A DNA stretch of 64,000 bases from Aquimarina spongiae (GTDB taxonomy: Bacteria > Bacteroidota > Bacteroidia > Flavobacteriales > Flavobacteriaceae). The position numbers and the translations under genes were made by a program. Below the pieces are notes generated by a model, which saw nothing but the letters and a program-made list of their open reading frames with translations, had not been told where the DNA came from and did no database searches. Shown piece by piece: positions 11,992 to 59,053 of this stretch; position 1 is the first letter of the stretch, and each line of letters starts with the position of its first letter. Location of the stretch: the NCBI RefSeq assembly GCF_900141785.1, contig NZ_FQYP01000005.1:62001-126000 (forward strand), given 5' to 3'.

Positions 11992-13272
11992 TTATTTTTT
12001 AAAGATAGGCAGTAGTTTGGTGGATACTTCTCCAAATCCAATACGAACTCCTGATTTCTCACAATACCCTCGCATGATTACTGTGTCATTATCTTCGATA
12101 AACTTTCGACTTCCACCACTTTTAAGCTGTACTGGTTTTTCTCCTCGCCAACTTAATTCCAGCATCGATCCATAAGAATCAGGTGTTGGTCCGGATAAGG
12201 TACCACTTCCCATCATGTCTCCAGAGTTCACAGGACATCCATTAATGGTATGGTGTGCTAGCTGTTGAGACATATTCCAGTACATATACTTGAAATTACT
12301 CTCGGATACGATAGTTTCTTCTTCGTTTTCTGGTTGGATCGCCACTTCCAGATTGATATCAAAACTTTTCTTTCCTGTAGATTGAAGATAGGGTAGAGGC
12401 TCTTTTAACAGCTTAGGCCCATCAGTTCTATAAGGTTCTAATGCATCCAAAGTTACAATCCATGGCGAAATAGAAGAGGCAAAGTTTTTACCTAAGAAAG
12501 GACCTAGCGGCACATACTCCCATTTTTGAATATCTCTGGCACTCCAGTCGTTAAATAATACCAACCCAAAAATGTAATCTTCTGCTTCTTCAATAGGAAT
12601 AGGTTCTCCAAGCGCATTGGCATCTGTGGTGATAAACGCCATTTCAAGCTCAAAGTCCACTAAACGGGACGGCCCAAAAATAGGCTCTGTAGCTCCATTG
12701 GTTAGCTTTTGTCCTTGTGGTCGATGAATAGGAATTCCTGAAGGAATAATAGAACTACTACGACCATGATATCCTACCGGGAGATGCAACCAGTTTGGCA
12801 TTAATGCATTTTCCTTTCCTCTAAACATAGTACCTACGTTGGTAGCGTGTTCTATACTGCTGTAAAAATCGGTATAATCTCCTACACTAACCGGCAATTG
12901 CATTTCAATTTCATCCAAGGAAAAAAGAACCGCTTTTTTATGATCTTCATTATTTTTTAACGCATCATTTTTTGCGTCAAAGATTTCTGCAATTCTATTT
13001 CTTACCAGTCTCCATGTTTTTTTACCATCAGAAATAAAATCATTTAGTGAATCCTGAAGAAAAATATCATCGGTTAGGGGGATTCCATCAAAGTATCCCA
13101 ATTGATGTAGAGCACCAAGATCTATTGCTGTATCACCAATTCTTGTTCCTATAGTAATAATATCATCTCTTGTAAGAAACACTCCAAACGGTATGTTTTG
13201 TATAGGAAAGTCAGTATTTACTGTAGTTTCAATCCAGGTCTTTCTATCTGGATTATTTGCAGTTATTGGCAT
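11992..13272 (-). CDS. fahA: fumarylacetoacetase
   Basis: Last step of tyrosine and homogentisate breakdown, splitting fumarylacetoacetate to fumarate and acetoacetate. The 426-residue length is that of eukaryote-type FAH. N-terminal domain about 1-115, then the FAH barrel with YTDFYSSIEHATNVGTMFRG, the metal-site acidic stretch VDFELEMAFI, FNDWSARDIQKWEYVPLGPFLGKNF and the MGSGTLSGP motif near the C-terminus. Monocistronic here; other tyrosine catabolism genes are not in the window. Confidence 0.96.
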   Translation of the reverse strand: MPITANNPDRKTWIETTVNTDFPIQNIPFGVFLTRDDIITIGTRIGDTAIDLGALHQLGYFDGIPLTDDIFLQDSLNDFISDGKKTWRLVRNRIAEIFDAKNDALKNNEDHKKAVLFSLDEIEMQLPVSVGDYTDFYSSIEHATNVGTMFRGKENALMPNWLHLPVGYHGRSSSIIPSGIPIHRPQGQKLTNGATEPIFGPSRLVDFELEMAFITTDANALGEPIPIEEAEDYIFGLVLFNDWSARDIQKWEYVPLGPFLGKNFASSISPWIVTLDALEPYRTDGPKLLKEPLPYLQSTGKKSFDINLEVAIQPENEEETIVSESNFKYMYWNMSQQLAHHTINGCPVNSGDMMGSGTLSGPTPDSYGSMLELSWRGEKPVQLKSGGSRKFIEDNDTVIMRGYCEKSGVRIGFGEVSTKLLPIFKK

Positions 13273-13307
13273 CGTTGTTTTTTTATGTTATTGCTAATTC
13301 GAATAAT

Positions 13308-13315
13308 CAAATATA
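13308..13315 (-). promoter_or_regulatory. -7 promoter element of fahA
   Basis: Minus-strand TATATTTG fits TAnnTTTG, 35 bases before the fahA start. Just upstream, an 11-base palindrome AGAACGGTTCT (13323-13333) could be an operator. The 309-base gap 13273-13581 otherwise holds only AT-rich DNA and the glyA promoter. Confidence 0.4.
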
Positions 13316-13547
13316 TAATTTTAGAACGGTTCTCGGTTTTTAATTCTGTGAAAAATAATTAAAAGATTCTTAAGGAATGATAACCCTCAATATTATGGTG
13401 TTTTTTTGATAAATGTTCAATGATTGTATCCTCAAAAATTGTGTTTTAAAAGGGATTATTTCTGTATGAAGATAGAACTCTCAAACTGTGAACAAATTGT
13501 TCATATTTATTAAGGATTGTTTAGGTAATTGTAAAGAAAGGATTCCC

Positions 13548-13555
13548 TATTTTTG
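13548..13555 (+). promoter_or_regulatory. -7 promoter element of glyA
   Basis: TATTTTTG fits TAnnTTTG, 26 bases before the start codon; a TTG at 13529-13531 with 16-base spacing is a possible -33 element. Confidence 0.5.
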
Positions 13556-13581
13556 CTTTTTTATTAACAAACTAGGAATAC

Positions 13582-14856
13582 ATGCAACGCGACGAACAAA
13601 TTTTTGATTTGATTCAAGACGAAAAAGAACGTCAGATCAACGGATTAGAGCTTATAGCTTCTGAGAACTTTGTGAGTGAACAAGTAATGGAGGCTGCCGG
13701 ATCAGTATTAACCAATAAGTACGCCGAAGGATACCCAGGTAAAAGATATTACGGTGGGTGTGCTGTGGTGGATGTTGTCGAACAAATTGCTATCGATCGT
13801 GCCAAAGAATTATTCGGTGCGGCCTATGCTAATGTTCAACCTCATTCTGGATCTCAAGCCAATACAGCAGTATATCATGCTTGTTTGAAACCTGGAGATA
13901 AAATACTAGGTTTTGATCTTTCTCATGGAGGGCATTTAACACATGGTTCTCCAGTGAATTTTTCAGGAAAATTATACAATCCTGTTTTTTACGGAGTAGA
14001 GAAAGAAACCGGACGTTTAAATTATGATAAGATCCAGGAGATTGCTGAAGCAGAGCAACCGCAATTAATCATTGCAGGAGCTTCTGCGTATTCCAGAGAA
14101 ATAGATTATAAAAGATTCAGAGAAATAGCAGATAGTGTAGGTGCCATTCTTATGGCGGATATTGCACACCCCGCAGGTTTGATCGCTAAAGGAGTGATAT
14201 CAGACCCTGTTCCTTATTGTCATGTAGTAACTACAACTACGCATAAAACACTTCGTGGACCAAGAGGAGGGTTGATCTTAATGGGAGAAGATTTTGAAAA
14301 CCCATTCGGAATTACTTTGAAAAGTGGTAAAAAGCGAATGATGTCTTCGATGTTTGATAGTGCTGTTTTTCCTGGTAATCAAGGAGGTCCACTAGAACAT
14401 ATCATTGCGGCAAAAGCAATCGCATTTGGAGAAGCATTGACTGATGAGTTCTTACACTATATTGTACAGGTGAAGAAAAATGCTGCTGTTATGGCAGAAG
14501 CATTCGTGAAAAAAGGATATGAGGTAATTTCTGGAGGTACAGACAATCATATGATGTTGATTGACCTAAGAAATAAAAACGTGACCGGAAAGCAAGCTGA
14601 AGAAGCTTTGGGTGTTGCGGAAATTACAGTGAACAAAAACATGGTTCCGTTTGATGATAAATCACCATTTGTTACTTCTGGAATTCGTATAGGAGTTTCT
14701 GCAGTTACTACCAGAGGTCTAAAAGAAGACGATATGCTTCAGATTGTTGAATTAATCGATAAAGTAATCGTTAACGTAGAAAATGAAGAAGAATTACACA
14801 AGATAGCTGACGAGGTGAATGCGATGATGGCCGATAAGCCATTGTTTGTAAGCTAA
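13582..14856 (+). CDS. glyA: serine hydroxymethyltransferase
   Basis: PLP enzyme interconverting serine and glycine with tetrahydrofolate, the main one-carbon source. 424 residues, full length. The PLP lysine is K222 in [16 protein letters not shown]; other blocks are [24 protein letters not shown] and [11 protein letters not shown]. Single gene with its own promoter element and terminator. Confidence 0.98.
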
Positions 14857-27683: not shown

Positions 27684-27852
27684 AGCTAAACGATTTTTTG
27701 TGTACTTAAATTTATTGATTCTCGGTTTAAGAATCGTTTTAAATTGGAAATCTTCAATAATTGCTCTTTTGTGAGAATTTTGTAATCGTGCTGGTATAAT
27801 TTGTGGTATTTTTATTCAAAATAAAGTTCTTTACATAAAATTCTTCATCAAC

Positions 27853-28027
27853 CAATATAGGTTTTACTTAATTGTAGATTAATAGGGAATCATGTGCAAA
27901 TCATGAGCTGTCGCGCAACTGTAAGTAACTATATAGTTTTTATCAGTATAAAATCCACTGTTCGCCATAATAATCGAATGGGAAGGAAGATAAAAATGTT
28001 ACAAGTCAGGAGACCTGCCTACTATTG
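27853..28027 (+). promoter_or_regulatory. cobalamin riboswitch upstream of metE
   Basis: Read directly: closing helix P1 CAATATAGG (27853-27861) with CCTACTATTG (28018-28027), the conserved segment AATAGGGAATCATGTGCAAA, the core GCTGTCGCGCAACTGTAAGT, GAATGGGAAGG, and the B12 box AGTCAGGAGACCTGCC. Order and spacing match the cobalamin (AdoCbl) class. It would switch off metE, the B12-independent methionine synthase, when cobalamin is available. The 27684-28203 gap holds this, its promoter region (TATAATTTG near 27795) and the expression platform. Confidence 0.95.
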
Positions 28028-28074
28028 AATTGACTACGCTTTCGCGATTTGAAGCTGAGGTTAAGTTTGATGTC

Positions 28075-28203: not shown

Positions 28204-30522
28204 ATGCTTACACACAATCTGGGCTACCCGCGTATTGGTAGCAAAAGAGAGCTTAAAAAAGCTCTAGAACAGTATTGGGCTGGAAAAACAACCCAAAAAA
28301 ACTTATTTCAAGTCGGGAAAAAGATACGGCAAGACAATTGGTTGTTACAAAAAGAAGCAAACATTGACTTGATTCCGTCTAATGATTTTTCGTTTTATGA
28401 TCAGGTACTAGACATGACACTTCTGGTAGGAGCTATTCCCGAGAGATATCAGGAGTTAATTACCGAGGAGATTCCTATTACGGATCTGTATTTTGCCATG
28501 GCTAGAGGGTATCAAAAAGGGATATTTGATCTTACCGCCATGGAAATGACAAAATGGTTTGACACTAACTATCACTATATAGTTCCGGAGTTTTATAGAG
28601 ATCAAGAATTTAAGTTGTTTTCTACCAAAATTATCGATGAATTTTACGAAGCAAAACAATTGGGAATTATTACCAAACCTGTTTTGATCGGTCCTATTTC
28701 TTATTTGCTTTTGGGAAAAGAAAAGGAAAGTGGTTTTCACCGAATCGAATTGATTAAAAATCTATTACCAGTTTACAAAAAAATCATCAAACAAGTCGTT
28801 GGGTTGGGAGCAGTTTGTATTCAGTTTGATGAGCCTTTCTTAGGTTTGGATATTTCTCCAGAAATAAAAGCGGTGTATAAAGAGGTTTATCATGAGATGA
28901 AAGCTGAATTTCCTGATATTAAATTTATGATCACCACATATTTTGAAGGAGTAGCACATCATTTAGATGTGATAGTTAATGATCTGCAATGTGATATTTT
29001 ACATATAGATTTGATTAGTAATCCCGAACAATTGGAAGTTGTTTTGGAGAAACTTCCTAAAAACATCCAACTTTCTTTGGGTGTTATTGATGGAAGAAAT
29101 ATTTGGAAAAATGATTATCATCAATCGTTACAAGCGATTTCAACAGCAATAGACCTAAGGGGAGAAGATCAAATTTTGATAGCGCCTTCATGCTCTTTGT
29201 TGCACGTACCTTGTGATTTGGATTTGGAAATGAAAAATGAAGAATTATCTTCAGAAATAAAGCAGTGGCTATCATTTGCGAAACAGAAATTAGATGAGTT
29301 GTCAGCCTTAAAGCAGATTACACTATATCCTGAAGACCAAAATGCAAAGGTGTCTTTAAAGTATAATGCTGCTTGTATAGAAAATAGATCTATTTCAGAA
29401 TTAATTCACAACCCAACAGTAAAAGAACGGGTTTCAAAATTATCCAAAAAAGATAGTAGTAGAGGTTCTGAGTTTCCGAATAGAAAAAGAAAACAAAAGG
29501 CATTACTTAATTTACCGTTATTTCCAACTACAACGATTGGCTCTTTTCCTCAAACAAAAGAAATCCGCAAAAAAAGATCTGAATATAAAGGTGAAATAAT
29601 TTCTCAATCAGAGTACACAAATTATATCAAAGATGAAATAAAAAAAGTAATCACCATACAGGAAAAGTTAGGCCTGGATGTATTGGTTCATGGAGAAGCA
29701 GAACGGAATGATATGGTCGAATATTTTGGAGAACAGTTAAACGGTTTCGCATTTACAAAGTTTGGTTGGGTACAAAGCTATGGGTCCAGATGTGTGAAAC
29801 CACCTATTATATATGGTGATGTGAGTAGAAAACAAGCAATGACTGTTTTTTGGTCTACCTATGCGCAATCTCTTACTCCATTACCCGTAAAGGGGATGTT
29901 GACCGGGCCTGTAACCATGCTACAATGGTCTTTTGTCAGGGACGATCAATCGCTATCAAAGACATGCTTAGAAATAGCCATGGCCATAAGAGATGAGGTA
30001 CAGGACCTTGAACAATCCGGCATAAAAATTATACAGATTGATGAACCTGCCATGCGAGAGGGGTTACCATTATTAAAAGAGAATTGGTCTCAGTATTTGG
30101 ATTGGGCAATCAACGCTTTTAAAATTGCTTCGTGTGTGGTTAAAGATCAAACTCAAATTCACACTCATATGTGTTATTCAGAGTTTAATGATATTATTGA
30201 TCATATTGCACTGATGGATGCTGATGTAATTACCATTGAGTGTTCGAGATCGCAGATGGAATTATTGGATGTATTTGCGAGTTTTAAATACCCGAATGAT
30301 ATAGGTCCAGGAGTATATGATATTCATTCTCCAAGGATTCCAAGTCCTGAAGAAATTGTTGTTCTATTAAACAAGGCCAAACAATATATACCTGAAGATC
30401 AGATATGGGTAAATCCAGACTGCGGACTAAAAACCCGAAATTGGCAAGAAACTGAGAAAGCTTTAGACGCCATGGTTGCTGCAGCAAAACAGTTAAGAAC
30501 TGAATTGCTACAGATGGTCTGA
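28204..30522 (+). CDS. metE: cobalamin-independent methionine synthase
   Basis: Transfers a methyl group from 5-methyltetrahydropteroyl-triglutamate to homocysteine using zinc. 772 residues, full length. N-terminal half starts HNLGYPRIGSKRELKKALEQ; catalytic C-terminal barrel has LFPTTTIGSFPQTKEIRK, HTHMCYSEF with His and Cys zinc ligands, and WVNPDCGLKTR with the second Cys ligand. Regulated by the cobalamin riboswitch in its long leader, implying that the organism also has a B12-dependent MetH elsewhere (inference). Confidence 0.97.
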   Translation: MLTHNLGYPRIGSKRELKKALEQYWAGKTTQKNLFQVGKKIRQDNWLLQKEANIDLIPSNDFSFYDQVLDMTLLVGAIPERYQELITEEIPITDLYFAMARGYQKGIFDLTAMEMTKWFDTNYHYIVPEFYRDQEFKLFSTKIIDEFYEAKQLGIITKPVLIGPISYLLLGKEKESGFHRIELIKNLLPVYKKIIKQVVGLGAVCIQFDEPFLGLDISPEIKAVYKEVYHEMKAEFPDIKFMITTYFEGVAHHLDVIVNDLQCDILHIDLISNPEQLEVVLEKLPKNIQLSLGVIDGRNIWKNDYHQSLQAISTAIDLRGEDQILIAPSCSLLHVPCDLDLEMKNEELSSEIKQWLSFAKQKLDELSALKQITLYPEDQNAKVSLKYNAACIENRSISELIHNPTVKERVSKLSKKDSSRGSEFPNRKRKQKALLNLPLFPTTTIGSFPQTKEIRKKRSEYKGEIISQSEYTNYIKDEIKKVITIQEKLGLDVLVHGEAERNDMVEYFGEQLNGFAFTKFGWVQSYGSRCVKPPIIYGDVSRKQAMTVFWSTYAQSLTPLPVKGMLTGPVTMLQWSFVRDDQSLSKTCLEIAMAIRDEVQDLEQSGIKIIQIDEPAMREGLPLLKENWSQYLDWAINAFKIASCVVKDQTQIHTHMCYSEFNDIIDHIALMDADVITIECSRSQMELLDVFASFKYPNDIGPGVYDIHSPRIPSPEEIVVLLNKAKQYIPEDQIWVNPDCGLKTRNWQETEKALDAMVAAAKQLRTELLQMV

Positions 30523-43044: not shown

Positions 43045-45348
43045 ATGAAAAAAATTAATCTTTACTTTTTTATTGCTTTAATAGCATTCGCATCGTGTAG
43101 CGATGACGACGATGTAGTGACACCTCCGGATAATCCGGATCCTGTCGAAAACAATGTTGTAATCAACGAAATTAGATTTCTAGGTACCGACTTGGTAGAA
43201 ATTTTTAACCGAGGAGATCAGGAAGCAGACCTTAGTGATTACTGGTTATGTTTAGGACCTGGTACTTACCAAAGAATTGGAGAAATCACTCCAGAAAGTG
43301 GAAGTGTTGTAATTCCTGCAGGGGGATATTTGGTATTACCTTACAATTTACCTGATACGGATGCAGGTTTAGGATTGTATTCTTCAAACGAATTCACCAA
43401 TGCTGATGCACTTGTAGACTTCGTGCAGTATGGATCTGGTGGAAGCGCTAGAGAAGATGTGGCTGTCGCCGCTGGTTTATGGGCAGCAGGAGAGTTTGTT
43501 CCTGCCACAACAGATGCCGATAACAGTATTATCTTTGATGGAGAAGGTAATGGTGCTGCAAATTGGGCAGAAACTACTACTGTGACATTTGGAGCAGAAA
43601 ACGTATTAACAATGCCTGTTAATGATGTACGTTCTATCGTGTTTAACGAGGTAAATTATGGGGAAGACAAATTAATCGAGTTATGGAATAATGGTACGGT
43701 ATCAGTAGATTTGGCACCATACTGGTTATGTCTTGGTCCTGGTCAATATTTACAGATTGAAAACGCAACTGTGGTAAGCGGTAATAGAGAACTTGCACCA
43801 GGTGAATTTTTGGTAGTAAACTGGGATATGTTAAGTAATAATGAAGGACTGGGATTATATTCTACTAATACCTTTGCTAGTGCTGATGCTATCATTGATT
43901 TCGTGCAATGGGGATCCGGAGGAAATCCTAGAGAAAATGTTGCGGTTGAAGCCGGAATCTGGACTGCAGGAGACTTTATTCCAGAGGTAAGATTACCAAG
44001 TTTTAGTATCGCGTACGATGGAGAAGGAGATGCTTCTACAGATTGGGAAGAGAGAGTTAATCCAACTTTTGGACAAGGTAATGCTACTACGGTAACCAAT
44101 AGAACATTTGCTGTTACCATCAGAAATACTGTAAATTACTTATATGCTGCTCCATTTGCAGAAAACGCACCTGTAGGAGCTTTGAACGGAACATTAACCA
44201 AAACATTTAAAGCTGTTCCAGGAGCAAAATTAAATTTTGCAACAATGTCTGCGGCTACGAATGATTGGTTTTTTGGACCAAGAGGAGTAGGGATAGATTT
44301 ATTTAACGGACAAACAGCTGTAACCGGAGATATTACAGATCAAGTTTTACTTTGGGATCTAGGTACAGAAGAAGAAGAAGCAGCCTTTATCGCTACGGTA
44401 CAATCAGGACCAAACATGGGGAACCCAGATGATGACAATACCGTTAGAATCATACAAGAAGATGTAAGTGCTGATATTCGAGTAGAACTAGCATATGATG
44501 AGCCGACTAGAGAATTTACATTGACCATTACGAACTTACAAGGTGCTGGAAATGGAATCGTTATTACTCCTGGATTAGTTGTACTACATGCTCAAAATAA
44601 CCCTTTATTTACTCTAGGGCAGCCTGATAGAGGAGTAGGTCTTGAAGCAATTGCAGAAGACGGTCTTCCTGCCGAATTAAATGACTGGTTCAATGAATTA
44701 GGTACGCAAGGAACACCACTTAGGTTATCTTCTTCATTAACACCTTTATCTCCTTCATTTATCTATGCTTTTAATACAGACAGAGATCCATGGTTTACCC
44801 AAGGAGAAGCAGCAAAAGCATCTAGCGGATTAGAAGAGATTGCAGAAGATGGTGATAGAAGTGTAGCATACAATTATCTAAAAGATTTTGGGATCCCTAC
44901 AGCTTTACCAACCGAGGCAGGACCGATTATGCCAGGTGGGGTACATACCTTCACAATAGAGGTTCCAGAAGGACAAGATTATAAATTAGGCTTCGGTACT
45001 ATGTTCGTTCAATCAAACGATTGGTTTATCAGTACAAACAATGTTGGATTGGTATTGTTTAATCCAGATGGATCAGCTTTCTCTGGAGTGAGCGAAAGTT
45101 CAAATACGTACTTATATGATGCAGGTACAGAAGATGATGAGCCGGTAGGTTTTGGGCCAAATCAGGTAATGAGACAAACTGCGCTTAATACAGGACCGGC
45201 AGATGCTGATACCTCTGTAAGAAGAGTTTCATCTCTAGAAGATGTTCAATTCGGAAAAGGAGTGATCAATAGTGGGCCTGGAGTAACATGGTTTGGAGAT
45301 CCAAGAGGAGGATATAACCTTATTGAAGTTGAAATCACGCCACAATAG
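43045..45348 (+). CDS. surface lipoprotein with two lamin-tail and two spondin-type domains
   Basis: 767 residues. Signal peptide with lipobox C18 followed by SDDDD, the acidic export signal of surface lipoproteins in Bacteroidota. Two lamin-tail-like repeats (VVINEIRFLGTDLVEIFN and SIVFNEVNYGEDKLIELWN, each with YWLCLGPG) occupy about 37-190 and 195-350. Two spondin_N-type modules follow: one with TVRIIQEDVSADIRVELAYD, the second with LVVLHAQNNPLFTLG, GLEAIAEDG, GTMFVQSNDWF and LYDAGTE. Likely adhesin, matrix or cell-surface ligand-binding protein; exact role unknown. Confidence 0.85.
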   Translation: MKKINLYFFIALIAFASCSDDDDVVTPPDNPDPVENNVVINEIRFLGTDLVEIFNRGDQEADLSDYWLCLGPGTYQRIGEITPESGSVVIPAGGYLVLPYNLPDTDAGLGLYSSNEFTNADALVDFVQYGSGGSAREDVAVAAGLWAAGEFVPATTDADNSIIFDGEGNGAANWAETTTVTFGAENVLTMPVNDVRSIVFNEVNYGEDKLIELWNNGTVSVDLAPYWLCLGPGQYLQIENATVVSGNRELAPGEFLVVNWDMLSNNEGLGLYSTNTFASADAIIDFVQWGSGGNPRENVAVEAGIWTAGDFIPEVRLPSFSIAYDGEGDASTDWEERVNPTFGQGNATTVTNRTFAVTIRNTVNYLYAAPFAENAPVGALNGTLTKTFKAVPGAKLNFATMSAATNDWFFGPRGVGIDLFNGQTAVTGDITDQVLLWDLGTEEEEAAFIATVQSGPNMGNPDDDNTVRIIQEDVSADIRVELAYDEPTREFTLTITNLQGAGNGIVITPGLVVLHAQNNPLFTLGQPDRGVGLEAIAEDGLPAELNDWFNELGTQGTPLRLSSSLTPLSPSFIYAFNTDRDPWFTQGEAAKASSGLEEIAEDGDRSVAYNYLKDFGIPTALPTEAGPIMPGGVHTFTIEVPEGQDYKLGFGTMFVQSNDWFISTNNVGLVLFNPDGSAFSGVSESSNTYLYDAGTEDDEPVGFGPNQVMRQTALNTGPADADTSVRRVSSLEDVQFGKGVINSGPGVTWFGDPRGGYNLIEVEITPQ

Positions 45349-49279: not shown

Positions 49280-49633
49280 GAATACACAAAAGAGCGAAAT
49301 GCTTTGTTGAGAAAGTAGATTGTTTTCATAAACAATCTACTTTTTTTATGCGAAGTTTTTTTGAAACCAAGCGTAAAGTAATTTTAATAATAATACTTCT
49401 AATTGATCCACGATATGTAGTGGTAAAATGTCTCCTATAATTCAAATATAATTGTGAAAGCTTTGTCTTGGTTTTTTAAAAATAAACAATTGAAAGTTAG
49501 TAGTTTATTTTTTCTTGTCTATTCATTGTCTGTCTCCTTTAAAAACTAGTTACTACAGGTCTACTTAATGTATACTTCTATTTAGGGATGTGTATCCATG
49601 TGCTCTTTATATTTATAAAAACAATATATACCA
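49280..49633. other. 354-base intergenic region before the NRPS-AONS gene
   Basis: Holds the terminator of the peptidase operon (49312-49347) and AT-rich leader DNA. One short frame from a GTG at 49454 to 49549 would encode 31 residues (VKALSWFFKNKQLKVSSLFF then a short hydrophobic tail); its reality is doubtful. A TATATTTA at 49608-49615 is a weak -7 candidate. Nothing else is recognised. Confidence 0.5.
49312..49347 (+). terminator. terminator of the CocE/DUF885 operon
   Basis: 14-bp stem AAAGTAGATTGTTT / AAACAATCTACTTT with loop TCAT, followed by TTTT. Confidence 0.92.
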
Positions 49634-52600
49634 ATGGATAAATTAACTCAATTTTTAAACGAATTATCGACCAATACAGACCAATTGGATCGTTTTAATT
49701 CAGGCTCGAATAAGACCGAAATGATCAGTAATCGACAGCGTATGTTGGACGCAGCAGGAGTGCAACATAAAGAAGAGATAGTTGACATGAATCTAGAGAA
49801 TTTACAAAACTTAATGAACAAAAACCTTGCTCAAAAAACAGACAACAATTTGGAAACAACAATTTGTGGTTTGATCGTAAAGCAAATGCTCAAGTATCCA
49901 GAACGAATTGCAATTATTGATAGAGAGACAAAAATCAGTTATAAGGAGCTAATGATACGAGCAGCTGAGGTTGCCGGAGAACTCATTAACCGAAAGGTAA
50001 CACCAGGATCACTGGTCGGCGTGTGTATGAACCGGACTTGGGAACTGGTTGCTGCTTTAATTGGTGTAATGCAGGCTGGATGTGCATATGTACCTTTGGA
50101 TCCAGCATATCCTCAGAATCGCGTTAAATACATGTTGGAGCATTCTCGTGCCGTGGCAACTATTGTAGATAATGAGGTTTCTGCCGAACTATGCAGTAGT
50201 GTGCAAGAACAATTACGGATCAATAAATTAAGCGGACATATCGATCATTCGGTAAGAGCATCAGGAAACGATTTGGCCTATGTTATCTACACTTCTGGTT
50301 CAACAGGGAAACCAAAAGGTGTAGCGGTAGAACATAAAGGTTTTGTTTGTCTTCGTCAATCTATGCGAGAACTATTTAGTGATGAGGAGTTGAAAGGAGT
50401 TTTTGCAGGGGCTTCGGTTTGTTTTGATACCTCGGTAATGGAAATTATGGGGACCTTATCACTGGGTGGAACTATCATTTTAGCCAAAAATGCATTGGAG
50501 TTGACCAAGCTTCCAGCTATAGATCAGATTAAAGTTTGTGTAATGGTTGCCTCGGCGATGCAAGCTTTACTAACAACAGAAAAATTACCTAAGGGCTTGA
50601 AATGTTTAGTATTTGGAGGTGAGGCACTCAAACCCTCACTAGTCGCACAAGTTTATAAGCAAAAACCAGATGTACGTGTTTTGAATGCATATGGACCTAC
50701 CGAGGATACAGTCTATTCTACCATCGCTGAAGTTTCTCCTGGAACTGAAGTAGTAACTATTGGTAAGTCTGTCCCTAACTCACGTGCTTATATTTTGGAT
50801 GAAGCTTTGCAACCTGTTGCTACTGGAGTAGCAGGAGAATTGTACCTAGCGGGAACCAAACTTGCACGAGGTTATTTGTATGATGAAGTTAAGACCAAAG
50901 AGCGATTTATTGACATAGTACCTAATGATCTGATTTCAGCTAATCGCTTATACAAAACGGGCGATTTGTGTTGCTGGACAGAAAATGGAGAAATCGAGTT
51001 CCTTGGAAGAGTTGATCAACAAGTAAAGATCAGGGGGTATAGAATTGAATTAGAAGAAATCGAGTCCATACTCGAGTCTATGGAAGGTATTGATGCAGCT
51101 GCTACGGCAGCCGTCGATGGAGGTTTTGGTCAGAAAATATTAGTGGCCTATATTGTAAGCAAAGATAAGTCGGTAACTGAGAACGAAATTAAATCGTATG
51201 TGTCACGACGATTACCAAAATATATGGTTCCTCAAGTCATAAAATACCTAAAGGCTTTACCACTGTTACCAAATGATAAGCTAGACCGCAAAAAATTAAT
51301 GAGTTTAGAAGAGAAATCTTGTGTCAAAAAAGATTCCGAAAATCAGACTGTCGTGCAAAATTTGATAGTTTCAAAAGATGAACAACAAGGAAAGATATTG
51401 TCAATTGTTCAGAATGAAGTAGCGTCTCTACTCAATTTGGATGATCCGGAACAAGTATCACCAGAGGATGCATTCGATAATCTAGGGCTCGATTCTTTAA
51501 CTACGTTGGAGTTTAGCTGTAGACTTACCAATTTACTGGGGCGAGAGTTATCCGCTCATGCTATTTTTGAGCATTCTACTCCAAATGCATTAGTGAATTA
51601 TATTACTAATATGATGAGAAGTGGTGATGCAAATAGCTCTACAAATGGGACGAAAACTGTATTCACTGATACACTAGCTAGTTTTCAAACACATATTCGG
51701 TCAAGTCACCCTACATTTCAAGCTGCCAAAGCGCCCGCTTGGGACGCGACAGATAAAAGTAAGCTGGTTCAAGAAGTCCTGCATATGGTAAATAATGATC
51801 GTAGAAATCCTTATAGCAAAGTATTACGAACAGGAAGTGCTACCAAAGGTATTGTGGGAGATGCTTATAATGACGAAGAGCAAGAGGCTATTATATGGAC
51901 AACGAACCTGTATCTCGGTTTGAATCGCGATCAGAAAGTTATGGAGGAAGCTTCTAATGCATTAGCGCGTTTTGGTACCGGAATGGGAACCTCTGCTGCG
52001 GCTTCAGGAATGACTAATCAACACTTAGAGTTCGAAACTGAGTTTGCCGATTTGGTAGGTAAACCTAGTGCATGTTTGTTTCCTACAGGATATACCGCTA
52101 ATGTTGGTGCAATAGCAGGATTATTAGGAAGAAATGACGTGGTAATTATCGATCAACTCTGTCACGCATCTATTGTAGATGGTGCACGTCTTTGTGGAGC
52201 TACGGTTCGAACGTTTCAACATAATAGTGCGTCTGACCTAGAGGAGGTGCTTAAATCTGAAATGTCCCCATATCGTACAATTTTAGTAGTATTTGAAGGT
52301 GTATATAGCATGGGAGAAGGGGCCGCACCAGTTGCAGAGATTGTTCGAACAGCAAAGAAATATAATGCACTCGTTCTGGTGGATGAAGCGCATTCTTTTG
52401 GTTTTTATGGTGAAAATGGAGCAGGTATTTGTGCAGCTCAAGGTGTTACTGAAGAGGTAGATTTTATTATGACGACACTCAGTAAAGCCTTAGGGAGTCT
52501 CGGAGGAGTAGTAGCTGCCAGTCAGGAACACGTTGATCTTTTGAAGTCATCCTCTAGAGCTTATATCTTTCAGGCCTCAATTAGTCCGGCTGATATGGCT

Positions 52601-53344
52601 GCTGCACTTACTGCATTAAGACGCCTTCGCTCTGATGATGCTTTGCGAGAACGATTATGGGATACTACTCGTTACATGCGGAAACAATTTGAAGATGCTG
52701 GGTATGATTTGGGAACTGGAGATGGTCCTATCGTTACTCCACACTTTAGTGACAAAGATAAACTGTATGCTATTGTACAAAACATGTATCAGCAAGGTGT
52801 TCAAACTTCTGCGGTAACGTATCCGATTGTCGAGAGCGGACGTGGGCGTTTGAGACTCATCTGTTCGGCAGCTCATACCCGCGAAGATGTAGATAGAACC
52901 CTGGCAGCTCTTATCGAGGCAGAACGCAAAGTAGATGAACAACTTACCATTGAGCAAAATGAAATAAAAGATTCGAATATATCAATATCTGATATCGAAG
53001 CTTGGGCCAAAGGATTTTCCTTGTATCTAAAACGATCCATGGCAGTAGTTGCTGCCCCAACTCCAAACCTGGCCATATCTGTTAAGGCCTCTGAAGCATC
53101 TAAGCCAGTTACAATCTTAGTTAAAGATGAAAAGATTACAATAAATACAGATGTAGGTTGTGATTTGCCTTCTTGTTCATTGATCATTACTGATAATGAT
53201 GCAGTTTCGACATTACAATCGTCTGATGTACAGGGATTACTTCATTGTATTTGCAAAGGAACCTGTATTTTGAAAGGACAAGTCGAACCGTTTATTTGGT
53301 TTATAGGAAGAATGGTAGATCATAGAAATAGTACGCAGAACTAG
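49634..53344 (+). CDS. NRPS-like fusion: adenylation, carrier, alpha-oxoamine synthase, SCP2-like end
   Basis: 1236 residues. An N-terminal extension (1-75) precedes an adenylation domain (about 76-560): [11 protein letters not shown] 219-229, FDTSVMEI (D265), NAYGPTE 351-357, YKTGDL 440, [15 protein letters not shown] 458, lysine K549. A carrier domain follows with phosphopantetheine Ser621 in LGLDSLT. Residues about 735-1095 are a PLP alpha-oxoamine synthase with [14 protein letters not shown]844, [17 protein letters not shown] (D917, H920) and lysine K951 in TLSKALG. The last 120 residues resemble an SCP2 fold. Expected chemistry: load an amino or other acid on the carrier, then condense it with an amino acid with loss of CO2 to release an aminoketone. 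Product unknown. The activating phosphopantetheinyl transferase is not in the window. Confidence 0.93.
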
Positions 53345-53383
53345 ATCAATTAAAAGATTAGTGGTATTAAATATTTATAAGTG

Positions 53384-53422
53384 GGTTAAAAGCCTTTCTC
53401 TTTGAAAGAAAGGCTTTTAACC
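53384..53422 (+). terminator. terminator after the NRPS-AONS gene
   Basis: 15-bp stem GGTTAAAAGCCTTTC / GAAAGGCTTTTAACC with a 9-base loop; following DNA is A-rich rather than T-rich, so strength is uncertain. Confidence 0.7.
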
Positions 53423-55554: not shown

Positions 55555-56847
55555 TTATTTATCCATTAAGTTTCTGAATTGATAGAAAAAGCGTTCTATC
55601 AATCGCAGATCCTCGGTAACAATTTCTACAACACCTCTCATTTCTTGCCTAAAAGGAATCTCCTTGTCATAAGTAGTAATGAGTTTGTCCGGCAGCGCAA
55701 CATCAATAAGATATAAACCATCTTTGTCTGGCAATAGTGAAATATAACTCACTTCACCTTTTAAGGTTCCAAATTCGTCGTCTGGAAAATTTTCCAATCG
55801 AATATTGGCCGTTTGTCCGATTTTGATTTTTCCAGAGTTTTGCGAAGGAGCTTTTATCCTAGCCAAATAGGATGATTCTTCTATAGGAACTACCACAAAA
55901 ACGACATCCCCAGCGGTTACGGTTTGGTTGGGATTACGGTAATTTAGAAATGAAACACGACCATCCATATCTGATTTCAGAACATATTGCAACTCCCAAT
56001 CTCTTATACTTGTTTTTAATTGATCAAAAGATTGAAGTACTTTCTTGAATAAATTAATTTCTTCCTTTTGTTTGTTGATTTCCGTTCCTTTGGAATTTTT
56101 GGTGGCATTACTAATGTTCTCAGTGATTTGTGATATTTGAACGTCATTGTTTTCATAGTCACGTTTTGCTCTCAAATAATCCAATTCTTTGTTTTCATAG
56201 GTTTGCTGAGAAATCACCCCTTTGTCATAAAGATCTTTTTGTCTCCCCAAATCTTCCTTTTTTAAGTTGAGCTCTTTACCACCTATTTTCTTTTGTGCTT
56301 TAAGGCTTTCCAATCTTCTATAGGATTCTGATAGGGCTGCCGCATTGGCAATAACTTCATAATTAAAGGGTTGATACTTCTTATTTAATCTATATTCAGA
56401 ATAACTATTTTCAAACAAGGCAAAATTGGTCTCGATATCCCCAAGAAAAAGTATTGGTAATTGATCCACAGGGAAATAGAATGACTGATTGTCTAATTTT
56501 GTAGTATCAATAATAGATTTTAAGTAAAAAACATCCTGGTAATTGGCTGTACTTCGTAATATAGCCAGAGGGGTATCCTTTGGAACAATTTGATTGTCCT
56601 CTACCAATATGGATTCTATTTTTCCATTGATCTTGGCATACTCTTTTTGAGGCGGGATTTGAGTGGTTACAATGGCCTCTGCGGGAATCACATCAGGATA
56701 CTTGATTAACCAGGATAAAAACAACAAAAGTATCACCAATCCCAGTATCAATAGATTTCCCCATCGAATCATCCAATGAGGAACTCGAGTTAAAATTTCT
56801 TGTACTTCTTCGCTTCTTAATTGTATGTCGTCTAAGTCTTCTGGCAT
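55555..56847 (-). CDS. HlyD-family membrane-fusion adaptor
   Basis: 430 residues: a short cytoplasmic start, one membrane helix near 30-48 (LLILGLVILLLFLSWLI), a barrel-lipoyl half (KINGKIESILVEDNQIVPKDTPL), a long coiled-coil (about 165-275, with KDLYDKGVISQQTYENKELDYL), and the second lipoyl/beta-barrel half ending IRLENFPDDEFGTLKGEVSYISLLP. Links the inner-membrane ABC exporter to an outer-membrane channel. One base separates it from the exporter gene, so it is co-transcribed with it. Confidence 0.92.
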   Translation of the reverse strand: MPEDLDDIQLRSEEVQEILTRVPHWMIRWGNLLILGLVILLLFLSWLIKYPDVIPAEAIVTTQIPPQKEYAKINGKIESILVEDNQIVPKDTPLAILRSTANYQDVFYLKSIIDTTKLDNQSFYFPVDQLPILFLGDIETNFALFENSYSEYRLNKKYQPFNYEVIANAAALSESYRRLESLKAQKKIGGKELNLKKEDLGRQKDLYDKGVISQQTYENKELDYLRAKRDYENNDVQISQITENISNATKNSKGTEINKQKEEINLFKKVLQSFDQLKTSIRDWELQYVLKSDMDGRVSFLNYRNPNQTVTAGDVVFVVVPIEESSYLARIKAPSQNSGKIKIGQTANIRLENFPDDEFGTLKGEVSYISLLPDKDGLYLIDVALPDKLITTYDKEIPFRQEMRGVVEIVTEDLRLIERFFYQFRNLMDK

Positions 56848-56848
56848 C

Positions 56849-59053
56849 TTACTTTCCGAGTTCTAATTGATTTTTAACTAAATGATAATAGTTTCCTTTG
56901 TTTTTGATCAGTTCTTCATGGTTTCCAACTTCTACTATTTGTCCTTTATCCAGAACCACAATTTGGTGCGCATTCTTTACGGTACTCAATCGATGGGCAA
57001 TGACCATTACAGTTTTGTTTTCGAAAAAGGCATCGAGGTTTTCCATAATTACCTTTTCATTATTGGCATCTAGAGCAGAAGTAGCTTCGTCAAAGAATAA
57101 AAACTTGGGGTTTTTGTACACCGCACGAGCAATAAATAAACGCTGCTTTTGCCCAGTACTTAATCCAACACCTTCCATACCGATTTTGGTATTATAGGAT
57201 AGGGGAAGAGACTCTATAAATTCTTGAATATTGGCCACTTTTACCGCATGCGCAAGTTTTTTCTTATCTACATAATCTTCTCCTACTGCAATATTATTGG
57301 CAATAGTATCATTAAATATATATCCTTCCTGCATCACCACTCCAAAATGATCTCTCCAAGATTTTTGTGAAACTTGTTTTAAATCATACGGACCGATAAA
57401 AATCTGCCCTTCATCAGGTTCATAGAATTTTAGTAATAGTTTCATCAGAGTCGTTTTTCCACTACCACTAACTCCCACGACCGCAGTGATCTTGTTAGCA
57501 GGGATCGAAAGGCTTAGTTTTTCTAAAACAGGTTTATCTGATCCAACATATCTAAAATCTACTCCTTTTACCTCAAAACTTGAGTTTTCGGGAATTTCTC
57601 TAATCTTTTCATCACCAACTTGTTCTTCATCTTCCTTGTTATGGATTTCTCCCAAACGTTCTAAAGAGATTTGGGCATCTTGTAGTTCTCGTAAAAAATT
57701 AATCAATTGGGCTATAGGAGCATTTAACTGACCTACAATAGCCGTAATAGCCAACATCATCCCCAAGGTAATTTCTCCATCGATGACGAGTTTGGCAGAA
57801 AATACGGTAATAATGATGTTTTTAAGTTCATTGATGAACGATGATCCAACACTTTGGTATTGCTCAAGAGCCAGATTTTCTATAGAAATTTTAAATAATT
57901 TGGCTTGTACAAACTCCCAATTCCATCGTTTTCTTTTTTCGGCATTGTGCAGTTTTATTTCCTGCATTCCATTAACGAGTTCAATCACTTTACTTTGTTC
58001 TTCACTAATTTGTGAAAATCGCTTGTAATCTAGTTTTTTTCGTTTTTTAAAGAAGATTAGTATCCAGGCAAAGTAAAACACACTACCAACTGCAAAAATC
58101 CCAAAGATAGTTAAGCTATAATAGATAAGTACAATGCTGAATACAATGAGGTTTACCATCGAAAACAACACGTTTAATGAAGACATGGTAAGTATCTGTT
58201 CAATTCTTTTATGATCGTTGATACGTTGCAACAAATCCCCGGTCATTTTTACATCAAAATAGGAGATAGGTAAATTCATCAACTTGATAAAAAAGTCAGA
58301 AATTAGTGAAATGTTAATACGAGTACTTAGATGTAATAAGATCCAACTTCGTAACACTTCAATTAAGGTTCGACCAATAAATAAGGATAACATTGCGATC
58401 AAAACTAGATACACAAAGTTGAGGTCTTGATTTTTGATACCGACATCAACTATACTTTGTGTTAAAAAAGGAGTGATAAGCTGTAATAAACTTCCGGCAG
58501 TTAATCCTAAAGCTAATTGGAAAAGAAACGCCTTGTATTTGAAAATGTATTTGGATATGAATTTGAAACCAAATTTTTCATCATTTTCATCGATATTATC
58601 ACTGTAAAAATTTGGTGTTGGCTCTACCAGCAGGGCTACTCCTTCTTCGGTAGTTTCATCTGCATTGTTTCCAATCCAGGCACGGATAAATTCTTCTTTT
58701 GTATAAGTAATTAAACCATGGGCGGGATCTGAGACATAGATAGTCATTCCACCATTTCTATGGTTTTTGATTTTGTATACTACAACATAATGTACTTTGT
58801 TCCAATGTACAATGCAGGGCAGGGGAACTTCATCTAGTTTATTTAAAGATAACTTCACGCCAAGAGATCTAAACCCAATTGCTTCTACTGCTTCACTAAG
58901 TCCTAACAATGAACTTCCTTCACGAGTGGTTTCGCTTAAAGTTCTTAGTTTTTCGGTATTAAGAATTCTTCCATAATGCTTAGCAATTATCTTAATACAA
59001 GTGGGTCCGCAGTCTTTGGATTCGGCTTGTTTGTAAAAGGGAAACTTTGGCAT
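56849..59053 (-). CDS. C39-peptidase-containing ABC exporter
   Basis: 734 residues. N-terminal C39 cysteine peptidase: catalytic C15 in SKDCGPTCI, H88 in VHYVVVY and D109 in YVSDPAHG. A membrane domain of about six helices follows (170-450), then the ATPase with Walker A GVSGSGKTT, signature LSTGQKQRLFIARA and Walker B FLFFDEATSALD. Such proteins cut double-glycine leaders from peptides and export the product. No leader peptide gene was seen nearby. Works with the HlyD adaptor gene that follows. Confidence 0.95.
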   Translation of the reverse strand: MPKFPFYKQAESKDCGPTCIKIIAKHYGRILNTEKLRTLSETTREGSSLLGLSEAVEAIGFRSLGVKLSLNKLDEVPLPCIVHWNKVHYVVVYKIKNHRNGGMTIYVSDPAHGLITYTKEEFIRAWIGNNADETTEEGVALLVEPTPNFYSDNIDENDEKFGFKFISKYIFKYKAFLFQLALGLTAGSLLQLITPFLTQSIVDVGIKNQDLNFVYLVLIAMLSLFIGRTLIEVLRSWILLHLSTRINISLISDFFIKLMNLPISYFDVKMTGDLLQRINDHKRIEQILTMSSLNVLFSMVNLIVFSIVLIYYSLTIFGIFAVGSVFYFAWILIFFKKRKKLDYKRFSQISEEQSKVIELVNGMQEIKLHNAEKRKRWNWEFVQAKLFKISIENLALEQYQSVGSSFINELKNIIITVFSAKLVIDGEITLGMMLAITAIVGQLNAPIAQLINFLRELQDAQISLERLGEIHNKEDEEQVGDEKIREIPENSSFEVKGVDFRYVGSDKPVLEKLSLSIPANKITAVVGVSGSGKTTLMKLLLKFYEPDEGQIFIGPYDLKQVSQKSWRDHFGVVMQEGYIFNDTIANNIAVGEDYVDKKKLAHAVKVANIQEFIESLPLSYNTKIGMEGVGLSTGQKQRLFIARAVYKNPKFLFFDEATSALDANNEKVIMENLDAFFENKTVMVIAHRLSTVKNAHQIVVLDKGQIVEVGNHEELIKNKGNYYHLVKNQLELGK

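Follow-up and report, generated by a model that had tools for sequence, protein, structure and literature searches.

A lone gene of Aquimarina encodes a fusion of amino acid adenylation, carrier and α-oxoamine synthase domains with a predicted SCP2-fold tail

Introduction

Could one bacterial protein, working alone, take an amino acid through activation and attachment to its own carrier domain to release as an aminoketone? The question is raised by one gene within a 64,000-nucleotide stretch of the Aquimarina spongiae genome (contig NZ_FQYP01000005.1; hereafter the window), in which a preliminary description had recognized an adenylation (A) domain, a peptidyl carrier protein (PCP) domain and an α-oxoamine synthase (AONS) domain. 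If the reading that we develop here is true, one protein of 1236 residues would suffice to turn two amino acids into an aminoketone, with chain release by AONS, and its C-terminal tail would place a lipid-carrier fold in an enzyme resembling nonribosomal peptide synthetases (NRPSs).

Results

The gene (Table 1) is one uninterrupted frame that opens with ATG, and profile searches find in its product an A, a PCP and an AONS domain, in this order, followed by an SCP2-fold domain recognized from a predicted model. Four Pfam matches lie above their curated cut-offs: AMP-binding (residues 84–415, E 5.2e-72), AMP-binding_C (residues 475–549), PP-binding (PF00550, E 8.8e-13) and Aminotran_1_2 (residues 753–1093, E 3.4e-46). 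The domain order given in the preliminary description was confirmed by the Pfam search, and Pfam, NCBIfam and the individual residues bear out, well above chance level, its statement that all core adenylation motifs, a carrier serine and a complete PLP site are present in one frame. Its three-domain anatomy was nevertheless incomplete, as it mentioned neither the SCP2-fold C terminus, nor the N-terminal extension, nor a conserved stretch of ~90 aa between PCP and AONS. Condensation (C), thioesterase (TE) and reductase (R) families are missing among the seven families that Pfam lists in the fusion protein, and a TE or R domain hidden at the C terminus is ruled out by the SCP2-like predicted model. 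Given that TE, C and R domains are absent, AONS is the only plausible release step, which supports the earlier proposal to that effect.

Table 1. Coordinates of the fusion gene, its domains and its flanking elements, in window positions
Feature	Position	Strand	Basis
Complete gene, A-PCP-AONS-SCP2 fusion, 1236 aa	49634..53344	+	Pfam, NCBIfam
Variable N-terminal extension, residues 1-75	49634..49858	+	no family match above noise
Adenylation domain, residues 84-549	49883..51280	+	Pfam, NCBIfam
PCP domain, residues 592-657; phosphopantetheine Ser621, codon 51494-51496	51407..51604	+	Pfam, alignment
Conserved PCP-to-AONS-core stretch, residues 661-750, includes [10 protein letters not shown]	51614..51883	+	26-copy alignment
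AONS domain, residues 751-1100; PLP Lys951, codon 52484-52486	51884..52933	+	Pfam, NCBIfam, structures by sequence
C-terminal SCP2-fold domain, residues 1116-1236	52979..53341	+	predicted model; no Pfam SCP2 match
Site GTCTAC-N5-GTATAC at -75, candidate regulator site	49559..49575	+	upstream-region comparison
Second, degenerate site copy at -117	49517..49533	+	upstream-region comparison
Strong hairpin after stop codon, without clear T tract	53384..53422	+	read from sequence

A frame artefact is ruled out by the single open frame and by 26 homologous copies of 1175–1268 aa. Foreign base composition was likewise rejected: GC (0.404) and GC3 (0.297) fall inside the range of the 16 other window ORFs (0.347–0.407 and 0.232–0.334, respectively). 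When the window copy is compared with the other 25, AONS is the best-conserved part (mean identity 87%), followed by the A domain (71%), the PCP-AONS stretch (69%), PCP (58%), the SCP2-fold tail (48%) and the N terminus (39%). The PCP of the window protein has a Pfam carrier match, and Ser621 is kept in 26/26 copies. The N-terminal extension, if every frame is taken to start at its first ATG, ranges from 14 to 90 aa and is only 14–45 aa long in half of the copies (13/26); this piece gave nothing but noise in Pfam at E values up to 10.

The A domain scores 387.6 bits against the NCBIfam model for amino acid adenylation domains (TIGR01733, cut-off 317.4), while the fatty-acyl-CoA ligase models among the best 25 of 122 families score far below their cut-offs. 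The motifs A3 (YTSGSTG, 219–225), PKG (227–229), A5 (YGPTE, 353–357), A7 (TGD, 442–444) and the A10 lysine (Lys549) are the same in all 26 copies. Counting from these core motifs, and assuming the usual residue scheme, we placed the specificity code at D265, T266, M269, V303, V326, G328, A352, V360, Y361 and K549. We take Asp265 to be the position that binds the α-amino group, and it is an Asp in every copy. Together with the TIGR01733 score, this residue supports an amino acid as the predicted substrate class. The code D-T-M-V-V-G-A-V-Y-K is found in 14 copies, including all 12 from Aquimarina, and the other 12 carry one to four changes: T266P and Y361F in all four copies of a genus labeled g95, A352F and Y361F in Kordia G1177 and G1174, and M269 to L or F together with V to I changes in the other Kordia copies. 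Since code positions vary in 12/26 copies, the substrate may vary as well. To our knowledge the code has no close match among known codes; the pocket is presumably uncharged, and we assume, with low confidence, a loose likeness to codes for aliphatic residues.

In the AONS domain, His844, Asp917, His920, Lys951 and Arg1074 are the same in all copies, and we take them to be the PLP lysine (Lys951) and the aspartate, stacking histidine and carboxylate-binding arginine of fold-type I AONS enzymes. This residue set, along with the fold-type I domain match, places the domain in the AONS family (BioF/Kbl/SPT/ALAS). Within the best 25 of 122 NCBIfam families, the serine palmitoyltransferase (SPT), bioF, Kbl and ALAS models score 257–333 bits, each under its own cut-off (SPT 333.1 versus 500; bioF 323.4 versus 426.45); despite these scores, the equivalog matches span most of the domain. 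Among solved structures, bacterial SPTs (3a2b, 237 bits; 8guh; 2w8j) are nearest in sequence; they differ from the window protein in being stand-alone enzymes. In place of the GSRFLNG stretch of SPT the window protein has TSAAASG, a difference that may have adapted the acyl pocket to an aminoacyl group bound to a carrier. Across the 26 copies, residues 785–793 (51986–52012) read (T/I)SA(A/S)A(S/T)GM at this place. The genome holds three stand-alone AONS-type genes besides the fusion, which need therefore not be a housekeeping enzyme.

The last ~120 residues adopt an SCP2 (sterol carrier protein) fold in the predicted model. Pfam SCP2 did not match any of three C-terminal sequences at E values up to 10, a range in which the HMMER filters discard most matches above about 0.1. 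The tail shares about 9–15% identity with its best matches, the SCP2 domains of sterol carrier protein 2 and UbiJ, and differs from known SCP2 domains in lacking a Pfam SCP2 match and in being fused to an NRPS-like enzyme. When AONS and the tail were modeled together with AF2, the result was poor (mean pLDDT 64.5) and was set aside. As a modeled feature, the SCP2 fold points to a ligand that is hydrophobic at one step or another, be it a hydrophobic product or a lipid, as both would fit; a lipid-carrier fold would be unexpected with a small polar product, and to that extent it speaks against a diaminoketone.

To see the gene in its surroundings, we compared about 14–24 kb around each of the 26 copies, from three genera, and found no neighbor common to all. 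Around the 12 Aquimarina copies, a single family of immediate neighbors recurs, in two copies (c39, 156–158 aa; upstream in G418, where the member has no Pfam match, and downstream in G419); the remaining immediate neighbors differ, and some copies have genes in common at a distance of a few kb. Eight of the ten Kordia copies lie in the same syntenic block, seven of them directly after a gene that is of PCMT type in G1178, and that of G1177 one gene further. The other two, G1171 and G1172, are found at a different place in the genome, both behind a large gene (a helicase in G1171). Three of the four g95 copies have a common gene of 143–144 aa one or two places away. Pfam assigned unrelated functions to the immediate neighbors scanned (20 of 42, around 14 copies; four had no match), among them penicillin amidase, transposase, alanine symporter, alginate lyase, aldehyde dehydrogenase and a TonB receptor. 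At one locus (L031, the G452 copy), a DDE transposase gene (12617–13858) lies directly upstream of the fusion, 407 bp away.

In the window itself, the gene is separated by 354 bp from the preceding gene and by 207 bp from the next. By Pfam its neighbors encode a DUF885 protein, a TPR histidine kinase, an HlyD/peptidase-ABC exporter pair and an alpha-amylase; a biosynthetic cluster in the window is ruled out, as these genes have no partners around the other copies. In the exporter pair (55555–59053, minus strand), an HlyD-type adaptor stands beside a C39-peptidase ABC exporter of the type that cleaves and exports peptides. The window also contains a Cobalamin riboswitch (27842–28037, plus strand, 96 bits) 167 bp upstream of a metE-type gene for B12-independent methionine synthase (28204–30522), a classic pairing, and a 767-aa protein (43045–45348, plus strand) with two stretches of Lamin Tail Domain and three of spondin domain.

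Comparison of 16 upstream regions revealed GTNNAC-N5-GTNNAC sites in seven, all from Aquimarina and five of them with two copies. Sites like that of the window occur at -72 to -75 in 6/16 regions and at -114 to -118 in 5/16; one region (L017) has its sole site at -101. As such sites are limited to 7/16 regions and are absent upstream of 10 further copies, they are not general. A genome scan allowing up to one mismatch returned two matches, namely the exact site of the fusion and a mismatched one inside a coding frame, against none for the control, which consisted of the backward pattern only. The sites suggest a regulation of its own in a subset of Aquimarina, and no more. Upstream of two Kordia copies (L010, L013), and more weakly of a third (L014), another conserved stretch, roughly GGACTTCCCxATAATCCATxTGAC, was seen by eye. 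Downstream of the gene, positions 53371–53450 fold at -23.4 kcal/mol; the hairpin, which a terminator scan did not report, possibly marks the transcript end.

The fusion is present in 12 of the 66 genomes of Aquimarina, in 10 of the 11 of a second genus (g179, taken as Kordia) and in 4 of the 6 of the third (g95). The near-ubiquity in one genus versus the patchiness in another suggests a dispensable ecological trait. The genome-wide search proposed in the preliminary description thus finds the same A-PCP-AONS order again, in 26 copies from three genera; the solitary and patchy nature of the gene had been missed. One source organism of the A-CP-AOS proteins discussed below is another marine member of the same phylum. 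A contig search returned three loci, all from close relatives (two Aquimarina records and one Kordia record). Six of the 397 genomes drawn from the family passed the threshold and five carry the fusion, as the sixth (G021) passed through its A part only (query 53–558), and the window's own genome is the sole carrier among 395 drawn from the phylum. With PCP to the end of AONS as query (residues 580–1099), 31 of 395 genomes drawn from the class match at E <= 1e-70, and the 30 matches besides the window's own sit in frames of 395–444 aa, which are stand-alone AONS genes. Other phyla were covered by tblastn against plasmids: 3 of 2774 matching records, all from Thioclava, have a single place that spans 80% or more of the query. 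One of these three (H1) carries separate genes, as does record H8, and records H15 and H4, unannotated there, have no ORF long enough for the fusion; one record matches at 60–80% identity.

In one copy (G179), two TAA codons are flagged in the match; its open frame has 1175 aa, and the match extends 15 bases past the frame start, so that the stops should lie outside the frame. With regard to a possible horizontal transfer, the G1171 and G1172 copies in the midpoint-rooted tree group with those of Aquimarina and g95, on a branch supported at 100/98 against the other eight Kordia copies. A tree that unites all Kordia copies in one clade is not rejected (p-AU 0.159), however, nor is one that does so for the Aquimarina copies (p-AU 0.322).

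Discussion

Based on these results, we consider it probable, with moderate confidence, that the gene encodes a self-contained enzyme which activates an amino acid, loads it, condenses it through AONS and releases it as a diaminoketone. The A domain would adenylate an α-amino acid, whose side chain is most likely uncharged and aliphatic, and load it onto the phosphopantetheine arm of Ser621, which would be supplied by a phosphopantetheinyl transferase from elsewhere in the genome; the genome has three genes of that type. In the AONS domain, probably a homodimer, a second small amino acid would be bound to PLP, and the adduct would attack the aminoacyl thioester with loss of CO2 (decarboxylative Claisen condensation), releasing a 1,3-diamino-2-ketone, such that the condensation would stand in for the TE or R domain found in ordinary NRPSs. 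For the SCP2-fold tail, the most likely role would be to hold or pass on a product or intermediate of hydrophobic nature. Once free, the aminoketone may react with itself to give a dihydropyrazine and then oxidize, which makes a pyrazine chemically plausible. The conserved catalytic residues, the conservation of AONS, the amino-acid-type A domain and the SCP2 fold count in favor of this reading, as do, by analogy, the BioWF and PigH precedents and the lack of a partner gene common to all copies; we infer the substrates, the product, the role of SCP2 and the cyclization, and the chemistry is borrowed from known families.

The same architecture might instead serve lipid synthesis, in which a fatty, hydroxy- or beta-amino fatty acid would be loaded and the product, a sphingoid-like or capnine-like amino-ketone lipid, would be bound by the SCP2 domain. 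The kinship of AONS with bacterial SPT and the sterol/lipid-carrier type of the C-terminal fold point that way, and SPT, ACP and acyl-ligase genes form trios in Rhodobacteria, according to the part of PMC9386255 drawn on here. Such loading is at odds, however, with an A domain that passes the amino acid cut-off and stays far under those of fatty-acyl ligases, with Asp265 at the presumed α-amino-binding position in every copy and with the separate AONS-type genes of the genome, and we hold it to be unlikely, if worth keeping in mind.

Still less probable is that A-PCP works in trans with other NRPS proteins, in which case the chain released by AONS would be a longer one handed to Ser621 by another protein. 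Frames of 1054–3138 aa with A-domain matches, presumably NRPS genes, do exist on contigs C23 and C27, but the fusion is on a different contig (C8) of this draft genome, lacks a C domain, has no NRPS among the 20 immediate neighbors scanned around 14 other copies and shares no partner across all copies. Carrier-independent activity is common among stand-alone AONS enzymes, and A and PCP are less conserved than AONS, as would be expected if AONS acted on free acyl-CoA only and A-PCP were a vestigial or regulatory appendage; the retention of the tested A-domain core residues and of Ser621 in 26/26 copies makes this very improbable. The self-contained diaminoketone synthase, which we favor, could be taken further, to a new class of one-gene, independently regulated systems in which A-PCP-AONS-SCP2 alone would make a hydrophobic diaminoketone or derived pyrazine as a diffusible signal or defense compound, SCP2 would carry it to the membrane, and the gene, equipped with a promoter site of its own, would have spread in marine Flavobacteriaceae as a single-gene cassette; we regard this extension as speculative and rather doubtful. 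Expressing a lone gene that has no partners is simple, so that the question of the product is directly testable.

Known assembly lines resemble the window protein in part. Pyrazine and pyrazinone NRPSs of the AusA type have the layout A-T...R, and thus a terminal reductase, whereas Pfam finds no reductase domain in the window protein. In the prodigiosin pathway, PigI is a separate A-domain protein beside PigH. PigH has two carriers, no A domain and a large-cluster setting, whereas the window protein has its own A domain and is encoded by a lone gene. As in the window protein, the carriers of PigH are followed by AONS in cis, and PigH uses serine; according to the survey of PLP domains in assembly lines by Milano et al. 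2013 (PMC3870968), no other protein of the AONS group had then been characterized experimentally. In BioWF of Corynebacterium amycolatum, experiments have shown an adenylating domain that is naturally fused to AONS and yields aminoketones; BioWF is a di-domain enzyme that uses a BioW-type adenylating domain, a CoA thioester and pimelate, with no carrier domain described in the sections of PMC9544090 considered here. The AONS enzymes of PMC12134224 and PMC8895605 are not described as fused to A domains in the corresponding sections of those papers.

Searches of the open-access literature yielded, among the papers listed, no characterized A-PCP-AONS enzyme, no A-CP-AOS protein with an assigned product, no account of AONS in Aquimarina and none of SCP2 in NRPSs; as far as these searches reach, the patchy, lone-gene distribution and the SCP2 tail are undescribed. 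The closest known counterparts are the A-CP-PLP2 (AOS) proteins of Microscilla marina (A1ZVW4) and Blastopirellula marina (A3ZWL3), which Table 2 of PMC3870968 lists with the same A-CP-AOS order in one chain and no assigned product, next to an A-CP-Luc-PLP2 protein from Nocardia. For the entry from the marine member of the same phylum, that table predicts an A domain for a generic amino acid, and for the A-CP-AOS entries it lists no SCP2-type tail, unlike the window protein; the comparison is by listing. An A domain feeding AONS is indeed rare, as the preliminary description had it, but because it is already catalogued in that table the A-PCP-AONS layout is not new. The window protein is a variant of the known, uncharacterized A-CP-AOS type, to which it adds the SCP2 tail and the lone-gene distribution.
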